Of a stretch of 64,000 nt of DNA, positions 1 to 63,371 are shown in pieces. Position numbers and translations under genes: made by a program. Positions within the stretch are counted from its first letter, which is position 1; each line of letters begins with the position of its first letter. A model generated the notes under the pieces. The model was not told the DNA's origin. It searched no databases and worked only from the letters and a program-made list of their open reading frames with translations. The stretch spans positions 26,144,240-26,208,239 of the forward strand of contig ML679954.1 of the NCBI GenBank assembly GCA_007922225.1. Reading direction: 5' to 3'. Source of the stretch: Emydura subglobosa (lineage: Eukaryota; Chordata; Testudines; Chelidae).

Positions 1-1850
1 GTATAGTAATGCAAGAGAGGGAACAGCTTTAGTAAAGTAAAACACTACACCTAGGGTGATAAGACTGGGAGGAAGCCATTTAGAGCCATTGCCATCCTGC
101 TGTGGCCATGCATCAAAGGACATGGAAAATAATTAAACTATTTAGTGTATTTATATTATATTTTATTTTATTTTATGAAGCATATTTGTGTGTGGAAGGT
201 GAAGACTTACTTTATGGAGTGCTTTACAGTAAATCAATATACAGTTGTATATGCAGTTTGTTTAGAGATCTGTACTGCAGCAGAGTGTTAATGGAGGAAT
301 CATTTAGGGCCAGAATGTGTAACAACTGGGGCGGGGGGACATGCAAAGCTACATCACCTAAGAGGGAAAAACAAGAGGCATTAGGCTATCTCCCCAGTTA
401 CCAGAGGAGAGTGCAAGTCGCACCTGGCCAGCTCCAGGGGGCAGGACTTTGACTCTGCCATTCCTGTTGGGGCAATTTTCTCCCTCAGGATGCATGGAGA
501 GAGAAGTCCCTAGGCTTTTCTAAGTGCAAGGACACTGCCTGTCCCTCGCTGTTGCAAAAGGCATCTGGTGTGAAGCTGGGAAGGAGGGATTCTCCTTATA
601 TTTCCTACCCCATACCAGGCCTGGGCCAACTTAGCTTTTAAATGATCTGGACTGAGTAAATTGAGGAAAAGCAAAGCCTTCTTTTATAGCATAAAACTAA
701 GCCCCACTGTGAGCTGCCATCTTTAATTGAATAGCTACTTTGCACTGCCAGAATGGTGTAACATAGGGGAGAGTCTTACTCAGAGTATCTAGACTGAATT
801 TTGGTCTATATTGACTTCAGTGGAATTTAACACCCTATGTTAAATCACTAAGGGTTAAATCCTCCAGTCCTTATTCAGTTAGAACTCATAATTTGTACTT
901 GTCTGAGATTAGGATCTCAGGGCATTAATATCTTGCATTCAATTAAACAGGATTTCTGAAATGCACAATGGATTATCAAATTCCTTTCCCAGTATAGGAT
1001 GGACCCTTAGGAAATGAGCATTTCAGTCCTAAAAGCTGTCTCTTAGTAAACATTCTCTATTATTTTTTTTTTAAAGATAGGGAATCCTGTTGTAGCAGGC
1101 TTGAAGGAAACCAAAAGAAAATCCTCATTATATGAAACTGAGTGTGCACAGTACATCTAGTCCTCAGCAGTAGAGAACTATAAAAGGTACATTTTGTATT
1201 CCAAATTGCCTGTGGTGTAATTAATTTTTTTTACATGGGATTACATTCATTTTATTTATACTGCGCAACAGCACTTGGGGTTTGACAGTCTCAGGTTCTG
1301 GATGTACTATCTTGTAAAAGGCCATTATGACTATATTCACACAAAAAGTCACTTGGGCATGCATAACTCAATTTATACACTTTTTAGGGCCTGTTCAACT
1401 TCTCACTTTTTCTGAATAAAAATCAGTCATAGTGTGGCAGGAAAGTAAGTAAGAAAGAATAGCATGCATGTTTATGCCAAATCTTTTGTCTTCATTTAAT
1501 TAGAGCAGTGTGAATAAATGGGCACTGTCAGGTGGAACAGGGCAAAATCTTGGGTTTTACTGGATTAATAGAAAACAGAAACGGTGCTGTTTCTGCACTA
1601 TGTTAGTCATTTCACTAAAAGGCAATGATTACACATGAAATCTCCTTTTTCCTTCCAGTGCCATTCAGCAGAAAAATATGCAACACTTTTGCCTGCAGGT
1701 CTAGACCCGATGAAAATGCAAAGAGTGGGCCATATTGCATCCATATATAAGGGTGATGGATGGCACAAGAAACCTTGCTCTCTTAAGACTCCCATGCAAT
1801 TGCTGGACATAATGGCAATCCCTTTGCTCCTCTGAGTGCAGGGACTGCTT
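1..1850. other. Anonymous intergenic sequence
   Basis: AT-rich sequence with only short chance reading frames. No repeat family, gene or RNA was recognised. Confidence 0.6.
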
Positions 1851-7658: not shown

Positions 7659-8630
7659 AACAACCAGAGTCCTGTAGCACCTTAAAGACTAACAAATGTC
7701 TGCAGGCGTAAGCTTTCGTGGGCTGCAACCCACTTTGTCAGATGCATGAAGTGAAAATCATAGATAGGAAGTATATATATATATCCAAGGGTAAGAAACA
7801 ACAATGGGGAGGGCAAATGCTAACAAAGACAATTCAGTTAGGGTAGATGAGGCCTATTCACAACCGTTGATTAGAGGGTGAGAATGGGTGAACAGTGACA
7901 ATTACTTCTTGTAATGAGAGAACCATTCCAAGTCCCTATTCAGACCCAGTTTGATTGTGTCAAGTTTGCATATGAGTTCCAGTTTCTCGCTGAAGTATGT
8001 TTTTGAAGATTTTTTTTGAAGTATGGCAACTTTCAAGTCAGCTACAAAGTGTCCTGGGAGATTGAAGTGCTCTCCTACTGGCTTATGGATGGTACCATTT
8101 TTTATGTCTGATTTGTGTCCATTTATTCTTTTGCGTCGTGACAGTCCGGTCTGGCCAATGTACATGGCAGAGGGGTATTGCTGGCACATGATGGCATATA
8201 TTACATTAGTAGATGTGCAGGTGAATGAACTCCTGATGGTGTGACTGATGTGGTTAGGACCTGTGATGGTGTCACTAGAGTCGATGTGCGGGCAGAGCTG
8301 GCAACGGAGTTTGTTGCAGGGATAGGTTCCTGGGTTAGTGTTCTTGTTGTATGGTGTATGGTTGTTGGTGAGAATTTGCCTCAGGTTGGGGGGCTGTCTG
8401 TAAGCAAGGATTGGCCTGCCTCCCACGGCTTGAGCGAGTGAGGGATCATCTTCTAGGATAGGTTGTAGATCCTTAATGATGTGTTGGAGAGATTTTAGCT
8501 GGAGGCTGTGGTTGATGGCCAGTGGTGTTCTGTTGTTTTCTTTGTTGCATCTGTCCTGTAGTAGGTGACTTCTGGGTACCCACCTGGGTGTTTTTGCTGT
8601 ATACAGACTAATACGGCTACTCCTATGAAA
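7659..8630 (-). mobile_element. Penelope-like element, 5'-truncated insertion
   Basis: The insertion is bounded by an 11-bp target-site duplication, CTTTCATCTAA (7648-7658) and CTTCCATCTAA (8631-8641), with one mismatch. The reverse strand encodes a Penelope endonuclease domain. The + strand left end carries the terminal ACCAGAGTCCTGTAGCACC and AAGACTAACAAATG. The right end carries CAGACTAATACGGCTACTCC, which normally belongs to the opposite orientation, so the termini are inverted relative to one another, as seen in many Penelope copies. Confidence 0.85.
7902..8594 (-). pseudogene. Penelope endonuclease (GIY-YIG) fragment
   Basis: A mobile-element protein fragment, not a host gene. The open frame contains the Cys-rich linker CNKLRCQLCPHI, then VIYAIMCQQYPSAMYIGQT (the YIG half of GIY-YIG; GIY is degenerate as AMY), GHKSDI, GEHFNLPGH and LNRDLEWFSHY near the stop. 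These are typical of the C-terminal nuclease that follows reverse transcriptase in Penelope-like elements. No reverse transcriptase remains, because the copy is truncated at its 5' end. The frame is unusually free of stops and continues into host DNA up to 8732, but those first residues are flanking sequence. It is probably nonfunctional for lack of its reverse transcriptase. Confidence 0.8.
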
Positions 8631-9010
8631 CTTCCATCTAAGGGCTTTCAGAATTATTACAGTTAATGTGGCTACATAGTAACTGTAATATTGTTCACCT
8701 GAGACAGCACTATAAATAGCCTCTCTCGCCATAATTCAAAAAGGAAACCATTTTTGTAAACATAACCAGATGACTGATAGAAAAGATCAGTGCACCTTGA
8801 ACTTGAAAGTTCAGATGTTTAACAGGGCTAGCCCCTAATATAGCAATTGGAACAGAATTCATCAGCATTTGTCTTAAATTTTCGACACCATATTCTAATT
8901 AAGCAAACACATTTTTTTTCAATGTAAAAATTCAAGACAATTTATCACAGATCCACAGGATTGGTGCTATGGTCCCAGCTTTGGAACAGTCTCTGGGAGG
9001 ACTCCTTCAG

Positions 9011-17865: not shown

Positions 17866-19175
17866 AATTCATGAGCAGGTCCTCAAAGAATCCATTCTGA
17901 AGTCCCTGCAAGAGAAGAAGGTGATCAGGAACAGTCAGCATGGATTCACCAAGGGCAAGTCATGCCTGACCAACCTGATTGCCTTCTATGATGGTTCTGT
18001 GGATGTGAGGAAAGTGGTAGATGTGATATATCTTGACTTTAGCACAGCTTTTGATACGGTATCCCACGGTATTCTTGTCAGCAAGTTAAAGTAGTATAGG
18101 TTGGATGAATGGACTATAAGGTGGATAGAAAGCTGGCTGGATTGTCGGACTCAATGGATAGTGATCAATGGCTCGATGTCTAGTTGGCAGCTGGTATCAA
18201 CCGGAGTGTCCCAGGGGTTGGTTCTGGGGCTGGTTTTGTTCAACATCTTCATTAATGATCTGAATGATGGGGTGGATTGCACTTGCAGCAACTTCGCAGA
18301 TGACACTAAGCTGGGGGAAATGGTAGATATACTGGAGGGTAGGGATAAGATACAGAGTGACCTAGGCAAATTGGAGGATTGGGCCAAAAGAAATCTGATG
18401 AGATTCAACAAGGACAAGTGCAGAGACCTGAACTTAGGACGGAAGAATCCCATGCACTGCTACTGACTGGGGACCGACTGGCTAAGCAGCAGTTCTGCAG
18501 AAAAGGATCTGGGGTTACAGTGGACAAGAAGCTGGATATGAGTTAACACTGTGCCCTTGTTGCCAAGAAGGCTAACAGCATATTGGGTGCATTAGTAGGA
18601 GCATTGCCAGCAAATCAAGGGAAGTGATTATTCATCTCTATTTGGCACTGGTGAGGCCACATCTGCAGTATTATGTCCAGTTCTGGGCCCCCCTACAGAA
18701 AGGATGTGGACAAATTGGAGACTGTCCAGCGGAGGGCAATAAAAATTAGGTGGCTGAGTCACATGACTTATGAGGAGAGGCTGAGGGAACTGGGCTTATT
18801 TAGTTTACAGAATAGAAGAGTGAGGGGAGATTTGATAACAGCCTTCAACTACATGAATGGGGGTTCCACGGAGGATGGAGCTAGGCTGTTCTCAGTGGTG
18901 GCAGATGACAAAAGGAGGAATGATCTTACGTTTCAGTGGTGCAGGTCTAGATTGAATATTGGGAAAAAGTTTTTCACTAGGAGGGTGGTGAAGCACTGGA
19001 ATGGGTTCCCTAGGGAGGTGGTGGAATCTCCATCCTTAGGGATTTTTAAGGCTTGGCTTGACAAAGCCCTGTCTGGGATGATTTAGTTGGGGTTGGTCCT
19101 GCTTTGAGCAGGGGGTTGGACTAGATGAGCTCCTGAGGTCCCTTCCAGTCCTAATATTCTATGATTCTGTGAATG
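17866..19175 (+). mobile_element. CR1 LINE, reverse transcriptase to 3' end
   Basis: ORF2 remnants run in order. AFDTVSH-like sequence lies at about 18040-18070, then [18 protein letters not shown] (usually VPQG, so altered), the catalytic FADDTKL near 18293-18313, and the C-terminal LFSLQNRRVRGDLI region at 18673-19086. It ends GATGAGCTCCTGAGGTCCC and ATTCTATGATTCTGTGA. Frameshifts and stops break the frame between 18466 and 18673, so it is inactive. Confidence 0.9.
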
Positions 19176-29280: not shown

Positions 29281-29294
29281 TATGGATGTGCACA

Positions 29295-29539
29295 ATGTGA
29301 AGGGGGAGGGCCCAGCCATCATGGGGGCTGCTGCAGCACCACGGCTTCTGTTGTGGCCAATCTCTGGAGTCCTAACCCTGTGCAAAGTTCATTTGCCTGG
29401 GTTGTGTATTGGGGGACAGTTTTGTCCCCAAGAGCGCACAAATAAATAACTGAATGACTTGCCAACAGCTTCAGCCAGTGTTATTTTAAGTTTATTCTGT
29501 AATAATAATGATTTAGTGTGTAAATCTGTCAGAAAAGTC
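29295..29539 (+). repeat. 245-bp direct repeat, copy 1 (upstream of the candidate exon)
   Basis: It begins ATGTGAAGGGGGAGGGCCC and ends CAGAAAAGTC. It matches 30210-30454 at a constant offset of 915 with no gaps and 3 mismatches that I could count. It lies between the 3' end of a CR1 and the acceptor of the 29569 exon. Confidence 0.95.
29334..29344 (+). promoter_or_regulatory. REST/RE1 left-half-like motif
   Basis: CAGCACCACGG equals the left half of the RE1 consensus. The right half is not recognisable. The motif is repeated in the second copy at 30249-30259. Confidence 0.25.
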
Positions 29540-29568
29540 ATACACAATGTGCTTTATTTTCTTCACAG

Positions 29569-29643
29569 GTGAACATGATTTCAAACAGCAGGCATCAGAC
29601 TCAGAGAAATGACACAATTTTACCATGCTTCATAGTAGTTGAG
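29569..29643 (+). CDS. PLPPR5: Candidate alternative upstream first coding exon of PLPPR5 with a PLPPR1-like N-terminus
   Basis: Seen: a pyrimidine-rich tract ending in CAG at 29566-29568, then GTGAAC, an ATG at 29575 (A at -3), 23 open codons and a GAG|GTAAGA donor at 29643/29644, phase 0. The peptide begins MISNSRHQTQRND and ends TILPCFIVVE. Human PLPPR1, from memory, begins with residues including NNTQR and ends its pre-helix segment IIPCFIFVE just before LVIMAG. PLPPR5 has MVIMAG at the same point, preceded by an acceptor-like AG at 52947-52948 that is also in phase 0. Inference: splicing 29643 to 52949 gives a second PLPPR5 isoform with a longer first membrane helix. The strong acceptor suggests a noncoding exon further upstream, perhaps outside the window. 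Alternatives are a decayed ancestral exon or chance, but homology, two splice sites and phase agreeing make chance unlikely. The coding part is 29575-29643. Confidence 0.72.
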
Positions 29644-29679
29644 GTAAGAAAACACTTGAGATACATTGAAAAGTACCAG

Positions 29680-30209: not shown

Positions 30210-30454
30210 ATGTGAAGGGGGAGGGCCCAGCCATCATGGGGGCTGCTGCAGCACCACGGCTTCTGTTGTGGCCAATCTCTGGAGTCCTAATCCTGTGCAA
30301 AATTCATTTGCCTGGGTTGTGTATTGGGGGACAGTTTTGTCCCCAAGAGCGCACAAATAAATAACTGAATGACTTGCCAACAGCTTCAGCCAGTGTTATT
30401 TTAAGTTTATTCTGCAATAATAATGATTTAGTGTGTAAATCTGTCAGAAAAGTC
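30210..30454 (+). repeat. 245-bp direct repeat, copy 2 (downstream of the candidate exon)
   Basis: Near-identical to 29295-29539. The flanks differ sharply on both sides, so the shared unit is exactly this segment. No obvious target-site duplication flanks it. Confidence 0.95.
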
Positions 30455-32588: not shown

Positions 32589-34639
32589 GGCTAGAATTTG
32601 ACCTTAACTTTGACAGTCACTGCTTGCAAACACGGTAATGAATGTGTCAGAATATTGATTTTACTATTTGTAAGTCAGATGGTAGATCTACATTCTGCAA
32701 CTCCCTATCTAAATTTCAGGAAATCTTACATCAGTGCACTTGGGACATAGGCTTCTCAGAATAGAGCCCTACACTCTGTTTGGTCCTGATGATGGGATTA
32801 CTTTTTCAGTTTTGATCTTGTGGATAGTTTTGTGTAGCCATAGAGTGATGGTCTTTTTTTTATGTTCCTCAAGAGATTCTGACATGATATATATCTTGCT
32901 TTGGTTATGCATTCTGCAGAGCTCTTCATGCAATTGTTTTCCATTGAATCTTAAGTTTTCTCATAGCTGAGCACCAAAATGACTTGAATAATTTACAGCT
33001 GATTCAACAGTATGAAGTCAGTCTTATTCTTTACTTTACCCTTTGGGCTTTTCAGTATTTATTTTCTGTCTAGGAAAGGTATTTACAATTTACTACTCAA
33101 AAAATTGCCACATCCTACCAGTTTTTCCTCTCCTACTCCTCCCACCCCACTACCAGTACCTACATAACCTATTAACTGTTTCATAAATCTGACCAGTGGG
33201 TACTTTTACATAAGATGCAGTAACTAGTCATAACAAATTAGTACAACTGCTGCTCACTCACTCTATCAGTGATATTGGTAAATGAACAATAAAGTAAACA
33301 GAAAAGCCTGTTAGTATGAAGCTCTGTTATAAACACCCATCACTGCCATGCATTGCATGCCTTTAAAGAGCTTACATCATGGCTGAACAGCAGGGCAGGA
33401 CAAAGAAATTATTTTATACAATTGAAATTGCAAGGATTTATAATTAGAATTTAGGAAAAACCTATTTATTTAAACAAACATACAAAAACTGACACAAAAA
33501 AAAAACCCTTGATTTTTTTTAGTGGCCTCATCTGGCTGGGGCCTTTATTCACATGAAAGGTGACACCCCCAGTGCCTCTGATCATCTTTCTGGGTCATTG
33601 GTTCAATTCATACTCAGGGGAAGTATACCACCTACTGAATCTCCAGCAACATTTCCTGCAGTATCTAAGGTTTTCTTAAATATCTTGTATCCAAATACTA
33701 ACTGGATCCAACCTTATTTAGCTTTTGAGTTCTGATGGGATCACAGCCCAGAAGGCAGGATTGCTGAAGAAAGGTGTGGAGTACTGGATCTTGTGACACA
33801 GGAAGAAGCGATGAGTACTTTAGGCAGATCACATTACTGATCTAATTGCAAAACCGTGCACCAAAGGAGTTTTATTGCTAGGCCATCAAAAATCCTATTT
33901 GGATCTGGTATCTGGAACATTTAACAAGGAGCACTCAGAGAAATACATTCTTAGAAATTGAATATTTCTCCTCCATGGCCATAATTCCTACTTTCATGAG
34001 ATGAAAGCAATAGCCTATAGCCTGTTGTTTTTTGTTTTTTAACCCAAGTCTTTTGTACCACATTACTATATGCTGATGCTGCAGTAATCACCTAGATTGC
34101 TTAGCAGACTGCATTATTTAAACTTATTGCTGGATAGACTACTTTGTTAAAAAGGAGGAAAAAAGTAGAATGATTCACTACTAATTTCAATAATTTATTT
34201 TGGTACAGTTTTTGTATTTAAAAAGTTATATAAGGCAATCAGTCTTCTATTAGTCATTGGATAGGAACAATACATTATTAGAAAACAAAGCCAATGGTGT
34301 TTGGGATTTCCATTTTTAGAAATAGCAACAAATTATTTTTGGCAATGAACTGAAAAATTAAGCGTCCAAGCACATCTAATGTGGAGATAAATATCCATGA
34401 AGATTTCAGCACTAATCATTCACTGAGAGCAATGCAACTATAAAAGGAAAAGAACTGATGCTGATAAAAAATGCTAATCACATTTTTTTGTCTTCTCCTG
34501 ACAAGACAAGCACTGGAAAACTTCCACTTCTTTGAAAACAGAAAATACCAATAAAGTAGGATCATTCAGTGAATGCTCTTTATTTTTAGAGCAATTGTCA
34601 TATGCAATTCTCCAATTTGGCTTTTGTAAGCTAGTTGGT

Positions 34640-48600: not shown

Positions 48601-51030
48601 ACATTTCAGCACACCATCTACTTAAGAGATGAACTTAACAGATGCTTATTAGAATCTGGTTCATCTAGACAATTGCTAAGCTCAACAGAATGTTCAGTTA
48701 GATGACCTGAACCCTTCCCCCGTCCCCCCAATGTCCTTTACATTTAGAAGTTGGGGCTGAAGGTAGCAGGCTGGTCCTCACTAAGGACTAAAGTTGTTTT
48801 TGTTTGTTTTGAAGTTCCTGGATGCTAAGAACCACAGGCAATTGTACCTATGAATGTTTCATTTAAACATTTACAATTTTCCGTTAGAGTATTGATTCAA
48901 TTAATTAATAATGTTTGCCCTGATCATGCACAATTATTTTCAATGAAAAACAAAATGTCTAGATTTTTCTATATAACTTCTCCACTTCTTAGATTCACAG
49001 CCCCTGTGGAAGATGAAGATGTTGATGAAGATGACGTTAAACTCCAATTTGACTTTTGTGGTACAGGATCAGACCCTAGCTCTGTAAACCTATTAAATTA
49101 CTAATTCGCTTGATAAGATTTCCATTAAATTCCAGGTATGCTTTGTCAGGGAGGAGGATAGCTAATTCTCCATTTCCATTTGGACTGTGGCTTTTCTGCT
49201 GAGATAACCAACAAGGCACTAATTGTGTAGTGGTGTTTTTTCTGATTTACTGGGGACTAGATTGAGACAACCAAAATCTAATAAAAAATATATAAGATTC
49301 AATATGCTGTATGAGATCTATACCAGTTTGCTGCACAATGTAGTTAAATGTATCTGGAAACCACATATTATACAGTGCCCAGTTAGGATTTTACAGCATT
49401 ATAGAGCAAAAGAAAAACAAGAGTAAAGTCTCTTAATTATAAGCTTTTAATAATTCCTTTAACAGCCTCATGTTGAACTTAAAAACAGCAGCAGATAATA
49501 CATTTGTCACTCATATCAACAATGAAGACACAGCAGCTGTAACCTTATTTTTCACAAACATGCATTTCTGTAGTCTGCTACTGATGACCCTCTGTACCGC
49601 AGAGATGTCATCAGTTTTTAAGATGAACTTCAAACAAGTTCAGTTTACCAGCACAAACAAAAGGCCATTTCCTGCCCTTTATTAAGTATGAGGAGAATTT
49701 GGCACCCAGCAGGTATGCCAGAATGTAGAATGCTCACACATGTTGTATTAATTAGAAATTAAAAAGAACATTTTCTTGATGATTTTTGGCCTGCTCCAAT
49801 ACACATTCCCTGAAATAAATATTCAGTATTACCCCCAACAAGGAACATTTTACATTAGTAAAAACCCAAACTCCTTGATACACAGCACTACACCATATGC
49901 TGATACATTAAATGTCAAATATTGCCACTTTTCCTATGGCGCCTCCAGTGAAATACAGTGGAAATTATGGGTCTGAGCCAATGCCTATCAAACAGTGGGA
50001 GTCTTTCCATTGACTTCAAAGGGGACTGCATCAGGCCCTGTAATGATAGTTATATAATTTTTTTTAGCTAACTAACAATGTACTTAATAGTGAGAGATTT
50101 TGACACAGGTAAGTCACTTTCAGTGACTGCAGGCAGCTGCAGGAAGGAAAACTCTGTAAAATTATTGGGCAGAGCAGAGTTCGCCACTAGATGTCTCACT
50201 ACATATTAACAGTTTATCTAACAAACTAATGAAGTCTGATAACTACACATGAACTCTTTTAAGGCCTCTTTTGGAGAATAAGTTCAAAATGCACAAAAAT
50301 AGACTTGGTTGGTCCACTGCTGTAAAGAAAATTTTATTTCAAGCAGTGGCTAGAAATAAATGCATGTAGACTAACATCATTTTGCAATACCATGAGGATA
50401 ACAAGTTAATGCTCCTGAACCAGAAAGTAAACCAATTTTTCAAGGCTCAAGCATAGCCAGTAGGAAAACACGCATATATCACATGAACAGAGAAAGCAAA
50501 TCTGGTTACAACTGAGATCAGACTGATTTTATTAACAAAGCCAAGTAAAGTTTAAAATGAATTTAAGGTTAACAGTGTGGCCTTGTAAAAGACTGGTTGA
50601 GCTTTTTGAGCAAAGTTCCTGGCTTTTGTCTTCCTGGGGCACAACCTTAAAGTTAGTTTTTATCTGTATTTCTTTTTTGGAGTTCTGATCTCAGAGCATA
50701 ACTTCTTGAAGAATATACTGGTACATCTGTACAAGAATTTACCATTTTTGTTTAATCTTTAAAAATCCTTTTTCCATTTAGATTGGAAGTGTGATTTCTC
50801 CAAAAGATAGAGTATTTGTTTTTATTTTACCAAAGTTAAAAATACGTTGTCCTCTTTCAGGTAAGATCCTATTTGTGTGCTGGAGCAGCTTAGATGAAGT
50901 AGAATATACACATAAAGCATTCAAAGAACACATTTAACTGCTGTAAGATAATATTGTTATAGTACTATTGACAAGTAAGTATATTGTAGCTGTCTGAAAG
51001 ATTTTATTAGAAACTTAAAAATTCTTAATT
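45660..51030. other. Anonymous sequence upstream of PLPPR5
   Basis: AT-rich sequence with no recognisable gene. It contains the small duplication at 46.35 kb and a half foldback (CCATTGACTTCAAAGGGG, ATCAGGCCC) near 50010-50038. Confidence 0.45.
46347..46398. repeat. 26-bp tandem duplication
   Basis: AATTTGTAAGCTTTATT(T)GCAATACC occurs twice in a row. Confidence 0.9.
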
Positions 51031-51033
51031 CCC

Positions 51034-51592
51034 AAGTGATTATTCCCCTCTATTCGGCATTGGTGAGGCTGCATTTGGAGTATTGTGTCCAGTTTTGGGC
51101 CCCTCACTACAAAAAGGATGTAGACAAGTTGGAGAGAGTCCAGCGGAGGGCAACAAAAATGATTAGGGGGCTGGAGCACAGGACTTATGAGGAGAGGCTG
51201 AGGGAACTGGGCTTGTTTAGTCTGCAAAAGAGAAGAATGAGGGGGGATTTGATAGCGGCCTTTAACTACCTGAAAGGGGGCTCCAGGGAGGATGGGGCTA
51301 AGCTGTTCTCAGTGGTGGCAGATGACAGAACAAGGAGCAACGGTCTCAAGTTGCAGGGCGGGAGGTCTAGGTTGGACATTAGGAAAAAGGTTTTCACTAG
51401 GAGGGTGGTGAAGCACTGGAATGGGTTACCTGGAGAGGTGGTGGAATCTCCATCTTTAGAGGTTTTTAAGCTGAGGCTTGACAAAGCCCTGGCTGGGATG
51501 AGATAGCTGAAGTTAGTCCTGCTTTGAGCAGGGGGTTGGACTAGATGACCTCCTGAGGTCCCTTCCAACTCTAATATTCTATGATTCTATGA
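51034..51592 (+). mobile_element. CR1 3' end, well preserved
   Basis: A continuous frame of about 155 residues encodes the C-terminal end of CR1 ORF2: [55 protein letters not shown], ending KALAGMR and a stop at about 51504-51506. It then ends CTGAGGTCCC, ATTCTATGATTCTATGA. It is 5'-truncated. The open frame and the intact terminal ATTCTATG repeats suggest a relatively young copy. It ends about 300 bp before the PLPPR5 CpG island. Confidence 0.92.
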
Positions 51593-52572
51593 TCTCTTTA
51601 AATATTTGTCTAGGAATGAAGTTGTTTTCACATCAGAATCAGAGCATATAAAAGTGTGTGCTTAAAATCTGATGGGAGGCTCACAAAAGTCAATGGAAAA
51701 AGAAGACTTCAATGGATTTGGATGGTGTCTTATGGTCCAACCTTGTTAATGAAATTAAAACTGGCTAAGCCTGGGGGTGAGAGAGGCTTTGGGAAGCCTT
51801 CCCGCCATTCTCCTGTTCTCCCTGTCTCTCGTTGCCCACTGGAGTGCTCCAGGTGGGACTGTCTCGAGCGTTCTAGGGAGGTGCCCGCTGCCTGCTGAGC
51901 ACGAGAGGCACCCGGAGCGTTGGCAGTAAGGAGACAGCATCAGTTTGCTTGGCTTGCCAAACAAACCGCAGCAGGGCATTATTGGGGGAGGGGGAGGAGA
52001 GGTTGTTAAACTCCTTGGAATCCCCGCGCCGCATTTTGGAAAGCGAGTTTAAAGCAGATGAGGAGCAAGAGGAGTCTGGCCGCGTCTGTGTGTTTCTCAG
52101 GGGCTGGCATCGCGCCGCACTGCCAAGTCTAGCAAGCAGCTAGAGTGGAGGAGGAGGAGGCGGCGGCGGCAGGGGCTGTGCACAGGCTGCTCCGGGGGCT
52201 GAGCACTGGGAGTGATCGTTCCAGCTGTTTGGACAAAGACAGACGATCCCACGGGGAGAAACGCTGGCCGATTTGGCAGCCTGCGAGCGGGGGGCTGCGT
52301 TGCCTGCCCGGAGCCGGGCTCGCGCGGACTGAGCTGGCGAGCTCGGGCTCTGACTGACTGGGGGATTCCCGACCCTTGCGGGGGAGGCTGGCGCTGGGCA
52401 GAGGCTTCAGGCACCCGCCCGGGGGCGGGCTCGGCTCGAGCGCTGCGGCCCCATCGCCACTGGAGGGGAACGCTCGGATCCGCTTCTCAGCCGGGCCCCG
52501 CGCCGGTCCGGGCGCCTGCAGCCAGGGGCTGCTCCCGGGAGGGACCCGCCGCCCCCTGCACCTGCCCGGACC

Positions 52573-52830
52573 GAGCTGGTGCTGCTGCCCGAGTCTAGCC
52601 GCCGCTCGCTCCCCCAGTGCATGAGCCTGTGCCCGGACGGAGCCGCCTGACAGGAGCCCATGGGCATGGGCTTGTGCCCGGGCCGCGCTGGTGCAGCTGC
52701 CCGGCTCTAGCCGCCTCCCGCCCTGCCCATGGGCACGGGAACTAACCAGCCTCCTGCGCTGCCCATGTGCTCCAGCCTGCTCCCGGGCGCCGCCGTTGCT
52801 GCTGGCTGGGACTAGCCGCCTCCTCCCCCC
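52573..52830 (+). repeat. Degenerate GC-rich tandem repeat in the PLPPR5 5' UTR
   Basis: A unit built round CTGGTGCNGCTGCCC and CTAGCCGCC recurs. CTAGCC occurs at 52595, 52707 and 52812, so the spacing is 112 and 105 bases. Between these, GCCCATGGGC- or GCCCATGTGC-like segments recur at 52656, about 52728 and about 52761. The copies differ by indels and substitutions, so this is an old or fast-evolving array. Confidence 0.6.
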
Positions 52831-52933
52831 GGTGGATGCCGCCGGGGAGCGGGCGGAGCGCGCAGCCGGGGAGGGGGGGCTGCCGCGGCCGCCGGAGCCG
52901 GAGCGCCTGCCAGTGCCCTCTGCGCTCACCAGC

Positions 52934-53137
52934 ATGCTTTACTTCCAGATGGTGATCATGGCCGGGACCGTGATGCTGGCGTATTACTTCGAGTACACCG
53001 ACACCTTCACGGTCAACGTGCAGGGCTTCTTCTGCTACGAGGGCTCCTACCGCAAGCCCTACCCGGGCCCGGAGGAGAGCAGCGCCGTGCCCCCGGCGCT
53101 CCTCTACGCGCTGGCCGCAGGGGTCCCGGTGCTGGTG
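52934..53137 (+). CDS. PLPPR5: PLPPR5 first coding exon (partial CDS, 68 codons)
   Basis: Exon 1 of a brain-enriched, multi-pass membrane protein of the phospholipid phosphatase-related (plasticity-related gene) family. These proteins resemble lipid phosphate phosphatases but lack key catalytic residues, and are linked to neurite and filopodia growth. Seen: residues 6-20 (MVIMAGTVMLAYYFE) form transmembrane helix 1. They are followed by YTDTFTVNVQGFFC and KPYPGPEESSAVPP, the start of the first extracellular loop, and by a second hydrophobic stretch at residues 56-68. Apart from a few substitutions this matches human PLPPR5 as I recall it. The ATG at 52934 has A at -3 and is the first ATG in this frame after the stop at 52622-52624. 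The exon ends GTG|GTAAGC at 53137/53138, in phase 0. The family is about 320 residues long, so roughly four fifths of the protein lies beyond the window. The neighbouring residues favour PLPPR5 over PLPPR1. Confidence 0.95.
52947..52949 (+). promoter_or_regulatory. PLPPR5: In-frame 3' splice acceptor-like site inside PLPPR5 exon 1
   Basis: CTTTACTTCCAG precedes ATGGTGATCATG at 52949, and a branch-point-like CTCAC lies about 20 bases upstream. The site falls between codons 5 and 6 of the usual open frame (phase 0). That is where PLPPR1 appears to join its N-terminal exon, and it would accept the donor at 29643. Confidence 0.55.
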
Positions 53138-55904
53138 GTAAGCAAGAGCCGCTTCTCCCCTCCCTGCCCCTCTGCCTCGCGGCGGCGCTCCGGCTCCAGT
53201 CCCCTCTCCCGGCTCCGGGCTGCGCTGCCCAGCAGCCGGTGCCCACAAGTGAATGAACTTGTTGGCAAGGCAGCCCCCCCTCCCCTCCTCCGAGGGCGCT
53301 GCTGAGAGCCGGGCTGCCCTCCGCAGCCATGGCCCCGGGCTTTGGTGTAGGGCCAGCGATCTGCCGACGATCAGGCATCCGTCAGCGTAACGAGGTATTT
53401 TCTTGATGAGCAGAGATCTGCAGCCACCATTTGCAGTGATTGGGAGCCGGAGGGAGCCGATTCCTTTGGGGGCCTGTGGGGGAGAGGAGGGCTTTCCCTT
53501 TCTGTCCCTTCTGGGAAGGAGCCTGCTGCTTTCCCCCATACCAGTGTGTTTGGGCTGCCATCAGTGGCACTGGAACAGACCCTCTAAATCAGGGGTGACA
53601 AAGCCACTAACCCCCTCCCCCCAACGCCCGGGGCCATTTCCTAATGTCTTCAGGGGAGTCCCCCGAAGTTCATTTTTATCAGCATGTATTAAACTGCTCC
53701 CTTTACTCTGAAAGCAAAAATAGATTCCTTTGCAAAATAGTGTGACGTGCCTATTGGGTTTTGGGCTTTTTTTTTTTTCAAAGCATGTGGGTTAGTCACC
53801 GATCAGTGGGCTACATTCCGGAGAGCCAGTGCTGCTAACGTCCACATGCTCGTATTTCAGCTACTAGGAATGAAAAGCTATATTTGTATGTATTTATTTT
53901 CTGAAAATAAGTCCATCGGGAATAGACAGTGCTTCTTTTTAATGCCCTGGGTAGGGCAAAAGAAACCTGTGCACCTGTTACTTTGGTGGGGTCTTCTGTA
54001 AATAAGGATTATGTAAGATTAACGTCAGGGGTTTTCTTTGTTTAGAAACATGCAAATGGAAGCACAATAAAACATCTGCCTTTAAGTTGCTGAAGGCACA
54101 GGTTGTAATGTCAGATGACAGGGACGTTGGCATCATTTAGTAATCCCTGATCATATTGTGGAGGAAAAAGTCAGAGGATCAGCGAGGGGAGTATTTAACC
54201 ATTTGGGATGGAGTGCGCACAGACTCACACGCTGCTGTTGTTTCCTCAGCACTAAAGAGCAGAAGCTTGACAGACAAGAAAAAGAGCTCTCCAGATTGAA
54301 ATGATTTATTTTACAACCGTATTCCCCTTCAGCAAGTTATTTTTAAAGGCATATTTGAGAATAAATTGCTTTCTCATCAAGCAGGTTCTGTCAGTAATCC
54401 CTACAATCTAATTTCATCATGCCACTATATCACCAGGAGGCTTCTGATTGTGTCAGATCCTCCAACACAAAACCCTAGGGCCAAATTCTGACCTCATATT
54501 GAACTCATTGGGGTTGGGTGGATGTAACTATGGTAGATGTGGACCTCTTTTTCTGCTGATTGAAACGCTCCCTTTAGTAAAATGTGTTTGTGTAGGTTTT
54601 TAGTTCAGGATTCATTTTGATTTTAACAAGTGTTACTAAAACAACCCATTCTGTAATTGTTTAGGCGGGGGCAAGAGGGTGAGGGGAGGTTAGCATGTCT
54701 GGACTATTTTTTGCTGTTTTTGTTGCCCAAATGTTTGGGAGGGGGGTTTATGTTGTGTTTTTAAACTCTAACTTTCACAGCAGTTTGATGGCTCAGAGGG
54801 TTGTAGTAGGATTGGCTATAGTCCAAGATGGTAGTGACCAAAAATGATTAATGTTTGACAACCATTTGGTGTCCTAGGTGCAATAAGTTGGTGGTATCCA
54901 TCCATTTTCTAATTGTTATATATCTACATACTACCGCCGTTGGTATCAGTTGGCACCCTTGTTGACAGTCTCAGCACAATAAGCTACTGATTGAATTGAT
55001 AGCATAGTGGAGGGTAAACACAGATACATGGAGTTTACCCACTTCTTGTTTGGGGAATATGGAGTTGAATTTAGGTCAGTTTACCACTACACCGCTGCTC
55101 TTCTCTCCTCCTTTCCTCCCCAACAGAGGCCCTCTAGAAATGGGTTGAGACACATTGGCAAGTCAGGGCATGGAAGCTTGCACAGCAGTTGCCTGTGTTG
55201 TACCTCTCCCTTGTATAAACAAAGGACTTCAGCCTTTGGGGATGTCGAGCTGGCATCTGTAACAAACACTAAATGAAATTAATAAGGAAAACATATTGGG
55301 AAGGCCATAGCTAAATTCTACTCTGATTTATTCTGGGTAATCCTGTTGAACTCACTGGATTTTCATGGAATGTATTTTAGTGCACACTTCCAGCCCCATC
55401 ATGCTTATTACGGATGAGGTTCTTTTATTTTACTTTGTTGATTCAGGTTGTTTCTTTTTTGAGGAGACCTAAAGCTGTTTGTTCTTTCCAAAGCTAAAGC
55501 TATTTATAAACTGTGGACAAGTCAACCATGGTGGAACTCGACTGACAGAGTTTTCCTAGGGATGAATTTGGTTCTTTGCTATTGTACTAAGCACTCCTTT
55601 CTTCCTTTCTAGTTCTTCCACCTACTGGTCCCCCGTATGCAAAAGAACTAGTCTGTCTTTAAAAAAGAAATGCAGAAAAGATATAAAAAGCATATCACAT
55701 GGCCAAATGCATAGCTGAAAATGTAGGCTGAACGGGAGGATGTATTTCCACAAGTAAAGATATTAACCTTTTAAAAATGTTTGTTATGGAAAAACAGTTT
55801 CATAAATATTATCATATTTGGAAGTGTTTAAAAAAATCCCCCTACCTGCAAAGCTATAAATAGGAAACAAAATTCAAATGATACACTTATTCATGCTACA
55901 TAGT

Positions 55905-62325: not shown

Positions 62326-63371
62326 ATTATTTTAATTTAATTTAGTCTACTTGCCTGATAAGAGATTGAGCACATTTAAAAATATAGGTCCTGATCCCAC
62401 ATGTACATGCTGTTTCATATGATTTCATGTTGTATGCAACATAAACCTATAGTTCTGTGATCATATTGAGCCCACTTCTGTGGTCTTTATTCAGGCAAAC
62501 TTTCCACTGATTGTAGATTCAATTTATGCTAAGAAATAGCTGCATTTTTTTCACTTGTAGTGCTAAACAATAGATGGTATAATTTTAAATTGCTTCTATT
62601 TTGAGTGCCTTCCTCCATTAAAAATTACAGTAGTTGATTTTTATTAGTTTCTTAGGCTATTTCTTTTTTGTTTAATGGTTTGGGGTTAGGGAGAATGAAT
62701 GCAAAACTTCTCTCACAAGCTATTTGGGAGCTTTGATAGAAATGATAATACACAGCTTTTCAAGAATTGAAATTAGCCCATTAATGTGGTTTGCTGATTA
62801 TTTTTCCTTCTCTATTTAACATTTTGAAACTCCATTTTGGTTGTGTTAGGCATCTAGGTGGCATGCAGTCAAAGGGATCTGACTCATGATTTCATTGTCA
62901 CTCAAACTCTGAATAATATTCTGCACATTTTCTTTAATCAGCTAGTAGCCTGTCTCTTTTTAATCATGAATTACATTGTAATCAATAAGTGGAACGTAGT
63001 TTCCATATGTAGTTGTCTTTGATTGTAATAAGGATTTGTATTAAACAGTTATAGCAACTAAGATCCCAGTTCAGGAAAACACACTTGAGTATGTGCTCAT
63101 TACTCTGTCCTTATTACTTAATTATGTACAATTTGTTTGTATGCATAATTAAAAATAAAACCATCAAAGATTTTTTTATCTTTAGTGCAGTAGTTTACAA
63201 ATGCAAATAGATGATATTGAAGTCTTGCACATTCTAAATAAGACAGTGTTTTCTCTGGTGGAACCAACTCCTCAAATCATCTTCTGGGAGGTGAGAGAAA
63301 AATAGTAATATATTTAAGTGAAACTATTACAATTAAACAGAATGGAATAAAATGCCATTGATGGATTGTAT

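Follow-up and report, generated by a model that had tools for sequence, protein, structure and literature searches.

A distal exon 23.3 kb upstream of the usual PLPPR5 start in the turtle Emydura subglobosa is probably a copy of the ancestral first coding exon of the family, in phase with an acceptor in which that start is written

The start of PLPPR5 lies on the forward strand of a 64-kb stretch of the 1.93-Gb genome of Emydura subglobosa (C19:26144240-26208239), referred to below as the window. The usual first exon of the gene reads ...ctcaccagc ATG CTT TAC TTC CAG ATG GTG ATC ATG GCC GGG, where the start MLYFQ (ATGCTTTACTTCCAG) occupies 52934-52948 (+) and is followed by the first-helix exon, 63 codons from MVIMAG to VPVLV at 52949-53137 (+), which ends at a gtaagc donor at 53138. 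This first-helix exon is backed by the sequence itself, by tblastn with PLPPR5 and by the score of its donor. Further on, still on the forward strand, stand later PLPPR5 exons (window coordinates 76400, 80665, 91904 and 94157). A composition scan (500-bp windows, GC >=0.5, o/e >=0.6) places a CpG island over the usual start at 51801-53500, the sole such island from 60 kb before the window to its end. We take MLYFQ to be the standard start of PLPPR5; the N-terminus assumed in the original prediction likewise lacks the distal exon described here.

That distal exon lies at 29569-29643 (+), and its coding part (29575-29643) holds 23 codons for the peptide MISNSRHQTQRNDTILPCFIVVE, ending in phase 0. 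Evidence for it comes from the sequence, from tblastn with paralogues and from database models. Read directly, the site runs ...ttttcttcacag/GTGAAC ATG ... GTT GAG/gtaaga: a pyrimidine-rich tract and cacag (29549-29568), six bases, the ATG at 29575, and the donor at 29644-29649, with its GT at 29644. Simple position weight matrices, built on typical base frequencies and ranked over the forward strand of the window, place the acceptor 5th of 4497 AG and the donor 8th of 3387 GT. An intron of 23.3 kb separates the donor from cttccag/ATGGTG at 52948/52949, an acceptor inside the usual first exon, between Q and M, that matches the donor in phase (rank 259 of 4497 AG, score 2.47; the corresponding PLPPR1 acceptor scores lower, 0.61). 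Joined in this manner, the distal peptide ends ILPCFIVVE directly before MVIMAG and fits the family pattern [IL][IL]PCF..VE. The original prediction had named the acceptor, the ATG, the 23 open codons, the donor, the ILPCFIVVE ending and a phase-0 acceptor-like site at MVIMAG, and all of these are present in the sequence.

It had further proposed that the exon is homologous to the first coding exon of PLPPR1, and the proposal held when checked within this genome on two genes, PLPPR1 and PLPPR4. The names PLPPR1, PLPPR4 and PLPPR3-like are presumptive, assigned by likeness to family sequences. In PLPPR1, the first coding exon (C75:9318277-9318339, minus strand) reads MALGNNTQRSYSIIPCFIFVE/gtgagt and stands about 48 kb before the first-helix exon. 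PLPPR4 neighbours PLPPR5 head to head: its first coding exon, MSAKERQKGKVTKDSVTLLPCFYFVE/gtgagt, lies near window position -38.8 kb on the minus strand and ends ...DSVTLLPCFYFVE/gtgagt, and its first-helix exon follows about 19 kb later, near -58 kb on the same strand. Both first coding exons are separate and small, and both end PCFxFVE at the phase-0 boundary seen in PLPPR5. A PLPPR3-like first-helix exon, on C50, begins directly after an acceptor.

The likeness to PLPPR1 (PRG3) comprises the small first coding exon, the PCFI.VE end, the phase-0 donor, the long intron and a TQR equally far from the donor. However, the small exon carries the standard start in PLPPR1, whereas the standard start of PLPPR5 is MLYFQ, and the likely PLPPR1 acceptor stands 41 bases before its ATG as against 6 in the PLPPR5 distal exon. 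PLPPR4 (PRG1) shares TLLPCFYFVE with a phase-0 donor, but differs in having no MLYFQ-type acceptor before its first-helix exon and a longer N-terminus. Over the last 15 codons, PLPPR5 and PLPPR1 differ at 15 of 45 bases, nine of them third positions, and keep 10 of 15 residues; on these 15 codons only, 54 of 5000 randomisations of the same base changes did as well. Over 12 codons shared with PLPPR4, 7 of 12 residues are kept, which 52 of 5000 randomisations equalled. Residues kept despite such base changes point to coding constraint on the distal exon.

Models from other vertebrates carry the same junction. Three protein searches, taken to the best 120 of 264, 131 and 148 matches, gave 173 distinct rows. 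Sorted roughly by script, the N-termini of these rows among the matches listed fall into 83 of the long type, 82 of the MLYFQ type, five others and three without the junction; fish proteins labelled type 2 sit in the long class, so that 83 is not a count of PLPPR5. In at least 14 tetrapod rows (P0004-P0017, 13 species), MVIMAG follows directly on the orthologous peptide: snapping turtle, duck (2), goose, two pigeons, jay, guineafowl and cormorant among reptiles and birds, together with woodchuck, hamster, Mastomys, raccoon dog and caecilian. Predicted long isoforms of this kind, such as P0004 of Chelydra serpentina (UniRef A0A8C3SZU4), run from the orthologous N-terminus into MVIMAG or LVIMAG, and fish versions of the distal peptide occur in reedfish (P0018) and sturgeon (P0019). 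In zebrafish, P0128 (isoform X1) is of the long type and lacks the PCF motif, P0158 (X2) begins MLYFQ, and the contigs listed for the two are of the same size. The database long isoforms of birds, rodents and fish (X1 to X4) are automated, and their residues and upstream extensions vary by species. Two rows, P0002 (Zosterops) and P0003 (Acipenser sinensis), show the first-helix exon twice in tandem and are perhaps artefacts of assembly or modelling. The two N-terminus types that had been foreseen for PLPPR5 therefore both occur among its database models; the description of the exon as hidden does not stand, since automated models of turtle, birds, mammals, caecilian and fish already include it.

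Given the PLPPR1 and PLPPR4 architecture in the same genome and the PLPPR5 models across species, the earlier view that PLPPR5 keeps an ancestral family exon is borne out: the distal element is very probably the PLPPR5 copy of a first coding exon that predates the separation of PLPPR1, PLPPR4 and PLPPR5. Sequence establishes the exon with its splice signals and phase, as well as the paralogous architecture; that the exon is joined to MVIMAG in other vertebrates is shown by their gene models.

Could an open frame have arisen by chance between good splice-like sites, with no relation to PLPPR5? Both strands were scanned for combinations of a strong acceptor with an ATG, 20 or more open codons and, 40-149 bases downstream, a strong phase-0 donor. 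Two candidates came out, the distal exon and an unrelated combination at 63191-63290 (+), which has a strong acceptor, a 30-codon ATG frame and a phase-0 donor, lies in the intron after the first-helix exon and encodes an unrecognised peptide; such combinations therefore do arise, which lends the idea some weight. When human PLPPR1, PLPPR2, PLPPR3 and PLPPR4 N-termini were compared with the 64-kb window by tblastn, the distal exon came top among the matches listed for all four, and the matches stop at the distal donor (E 4.5e-4, 0.004, 0.068 and 0.073). A 12-residue profile was drawn from 38 hand-picked long-type database rows, of which 37 yielded the segment, 21 of them distinct; the rows are mostly from fish, with one lamprey and one unnamed, and several are labelled type 2a, not 5. 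It scores 21.2 at the distal exon as against 10.5 at the runner-up site. The top score in 60 simulated windows was 19.8, and among 400 simulated windows 21.1 was reached in one anywhere, a point in favour of chance, but in none once an adjacent GT was required. Moreover, phase, strand and motif agree with those of PLPPR1 and PLPPR4 in this genome, and the orthologous peptide in the PLPPR5 models of other species weighs heavily, so that an origin by chance is scarcely credible. Alternatively, the element could be an exon of a separate upstream transcript, for instance a read-through or non-coding RNA, whose joining to PLPPR5 is an artefact of homology prediction. The database rows do not show whether a model was built from RNA or from homology, and no promoter was found here. 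With an acceptor in front of it, the distal exon should be preceded by another exon, non-coding, and a promoter. The peptides that the Chelydra, cormorant, duck and pigeon models carry upstream gave no convincing match in the window beyond the distal exon, nor did those of Chelydra and cormorant in 264 kb of the contig, and from 60 kb before the window to 51.8 kb there is no CpG island for a distal or a PLPPR4-shared promoter. Against a separate transcript, the frame and phase fit the PLPPR5 acceptor and the family N-terminal motif is present. Further, all five upstream-extended bird rows have VN before the start residue (M, or I in the two pigeons), preceded by MK (2), MNFQ (2) or MPGT (1). 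The VN matches GTGAAC at the exon start and so supports the acceptor position, and these extensions differ from the paralogue sequence and hence were not simply copied from PLPPR1. The extended Chelydra row, the sole upstream-extended turtle row, has GN instead of VN before M. Taken together, a separate transcript appears very unlikely.

A decaying relic, in which the ancestral exon is still open but no longer usefully spliced and only the short form from the CpG promoter works here, is less remote, although it too is improbable. In its favour, the exon changes fast: relative to the snapping turtle, 6 of 23 residues differ in the distal exon and 1 of 63 in the next, and the corresponding figures are 8-11 of 23 and 6-7 of 63 against seven bird rows and 11-12 of 23 and 7-8 of 63 against three mammal rows (P0007 and P0014 were set aside in these counts). 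The ATG of the distal exon is lost in two pigeon rows. Further, a 245-bp direct repeat (29295-29539 and 30210-30454, 98.8% identical) flanks the exon, and its first copy ends only 29 bp before it. On the other side, this genome retains the open frame, an acceptor and a donor that are both very strong, and the PCF..VE motif, and the exon is present in the models of many vertebrates. The motif CACAATGTG occurs only at 29291-29299, overlapping the start of the first copy, and at 29543-29551, that is, at both ends of that copy, a pattern that a recent duplicative insertion of one copy would leave, with older sequence pushed away from the acceptor. Strict yTnAy branch-point matches within 70 bases upstream of the exon fall only at -13 and -4. 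Judged from these sequence features, splicing of the distal exon might be weaker in Emydura subglobosa. That the repeat might be a mobile element of high copy number was rejected, as two copies were counted in the genome, repeat counts being lower bounds.

If the distal exon is the retained family exon, as we favour, the two ends of PLPPR5 may be explained as follows. A transcript from a predicted upstream promoter would splice 29643 to 52949; its protein would resemble PLPPR1, with a cytosolic tail that is polar and basic (MISNSRHQTQRNDT) before a first membrane helix beginning ILPCFIVVE. A transcript from the CpG-island promoter would start just before the ancestral acceptor and give the usual protein, which begins MLYFQ and has hardly any tail. 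The final bases of the ancestral acceptor double as the codons of the MLYFQ start: it appears that transcription beginning just before that acceptor, in the CpG island, lets the last 15 bases of the intron read MLYFQ. With two transcript types, the same letters would act as a splice site in one and be translated, start codon included, in the other. Two starts with common downstream exons are also what alternative promoters with alternative first exons give in general, but here the proximal start lies inside the 3' splice site of the distal form and its letters are read two ways. The locus is a neat candidate for a working splice acceptor that contains a start codon and coding letters. The choice of first exon would set the presence of the family N-terminal tail and could alter trafficking, partners and multimer formation. 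Over the best 19 residues, mean hydropathy is 1.52 in the short form and 2.34 in the long form, where a stretch of 14 residues, polar and basic, stands in front of them. Structure predictions were too poor to use (mean pLDDT 43.4 for long-form P0016 and 45.6 for short-form P0024), and a PDB sequence search with 86 residues returned no match.

The PLPPR1 intron in this genome ends ATGCTGTATTTTCAG just before LVIMAG (L002 about 1681-1697, minus strand, C75), which reads ATG-CTG-TAT-TTT-CAG, again MLYFQ. It differs from ATGCTTTACTTCCAG of PLPPR5 at three positions, all third positions and all synonymous. Since a pyrimidine tract also accommodates C/T exchanges, the identity suggests, and does not prove, that PLPPR1 uses, or formerly used, the same short start. 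It is tempting to go further and suppose that the N-terminal switch is older than PLPPR5, that the ancestor of PLPPR1 and PLPPR5 had the dual-use acceptor, that PLPPR1 still makes an unnoticed MLYFQ-LVIMAG form and that the choice of tail has been regulated since early vertebrates; we hold this as a tentative idea, with the balance somewhat against it.

In published work, the N-terminus of the PLPPR family is cytosolic (PMC9520309, figure legend), that of mouse PRG5 has only five amino acids (PMC11471602, 2024), and an N-terminal eGFP on PRG5 blocks membrane delivery unless a spacer is added (cited in PMC11471602). Given these observations, a PLPPR5 form with a tail of its own might be delivered differently or have other partners. 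A shifted LPPR5 splicing event has been described (PMC6399920), in text that, as far as available, leaves the event unspecified. The terms 'isoform' and 'splic' do not occur in the available main text of PMC9520309, PMC9657456, PMC9053830 or PMC11471602, the 2010 PRG5 paper (PMC2820418) being outside this scope, and 'isoform' occurs twice in the available text of PMC8952597, in one reference title and in one legend on collapsed gene models. The distal exon, already in automated models and without mention in the available text of the PLPPR papers searched by term, should be useful to PLPPR researchers. If the long form, with its family-type tail, is expressed, it could escape constructs, N-terminal antibodies and knock-outs designed on the usual first exon.

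Several minor elements share the window. An Rfam match resembling SNORD75 lies near the distal exon, far below its gathering score, and a 5S rRNA-like match at 33653-33768 (-) reaches 40.7 bits against a gathering score of 38, perhaps as a pseudogene or a SINE head. Judged by their translations, the open frames at 18095-18466, 18655-19086 and 50979-51506 (+) are putative CR1-type LINE pieces, and that at 7902-8735 (-) is a putative Penelope-like GIY-YIG piece.
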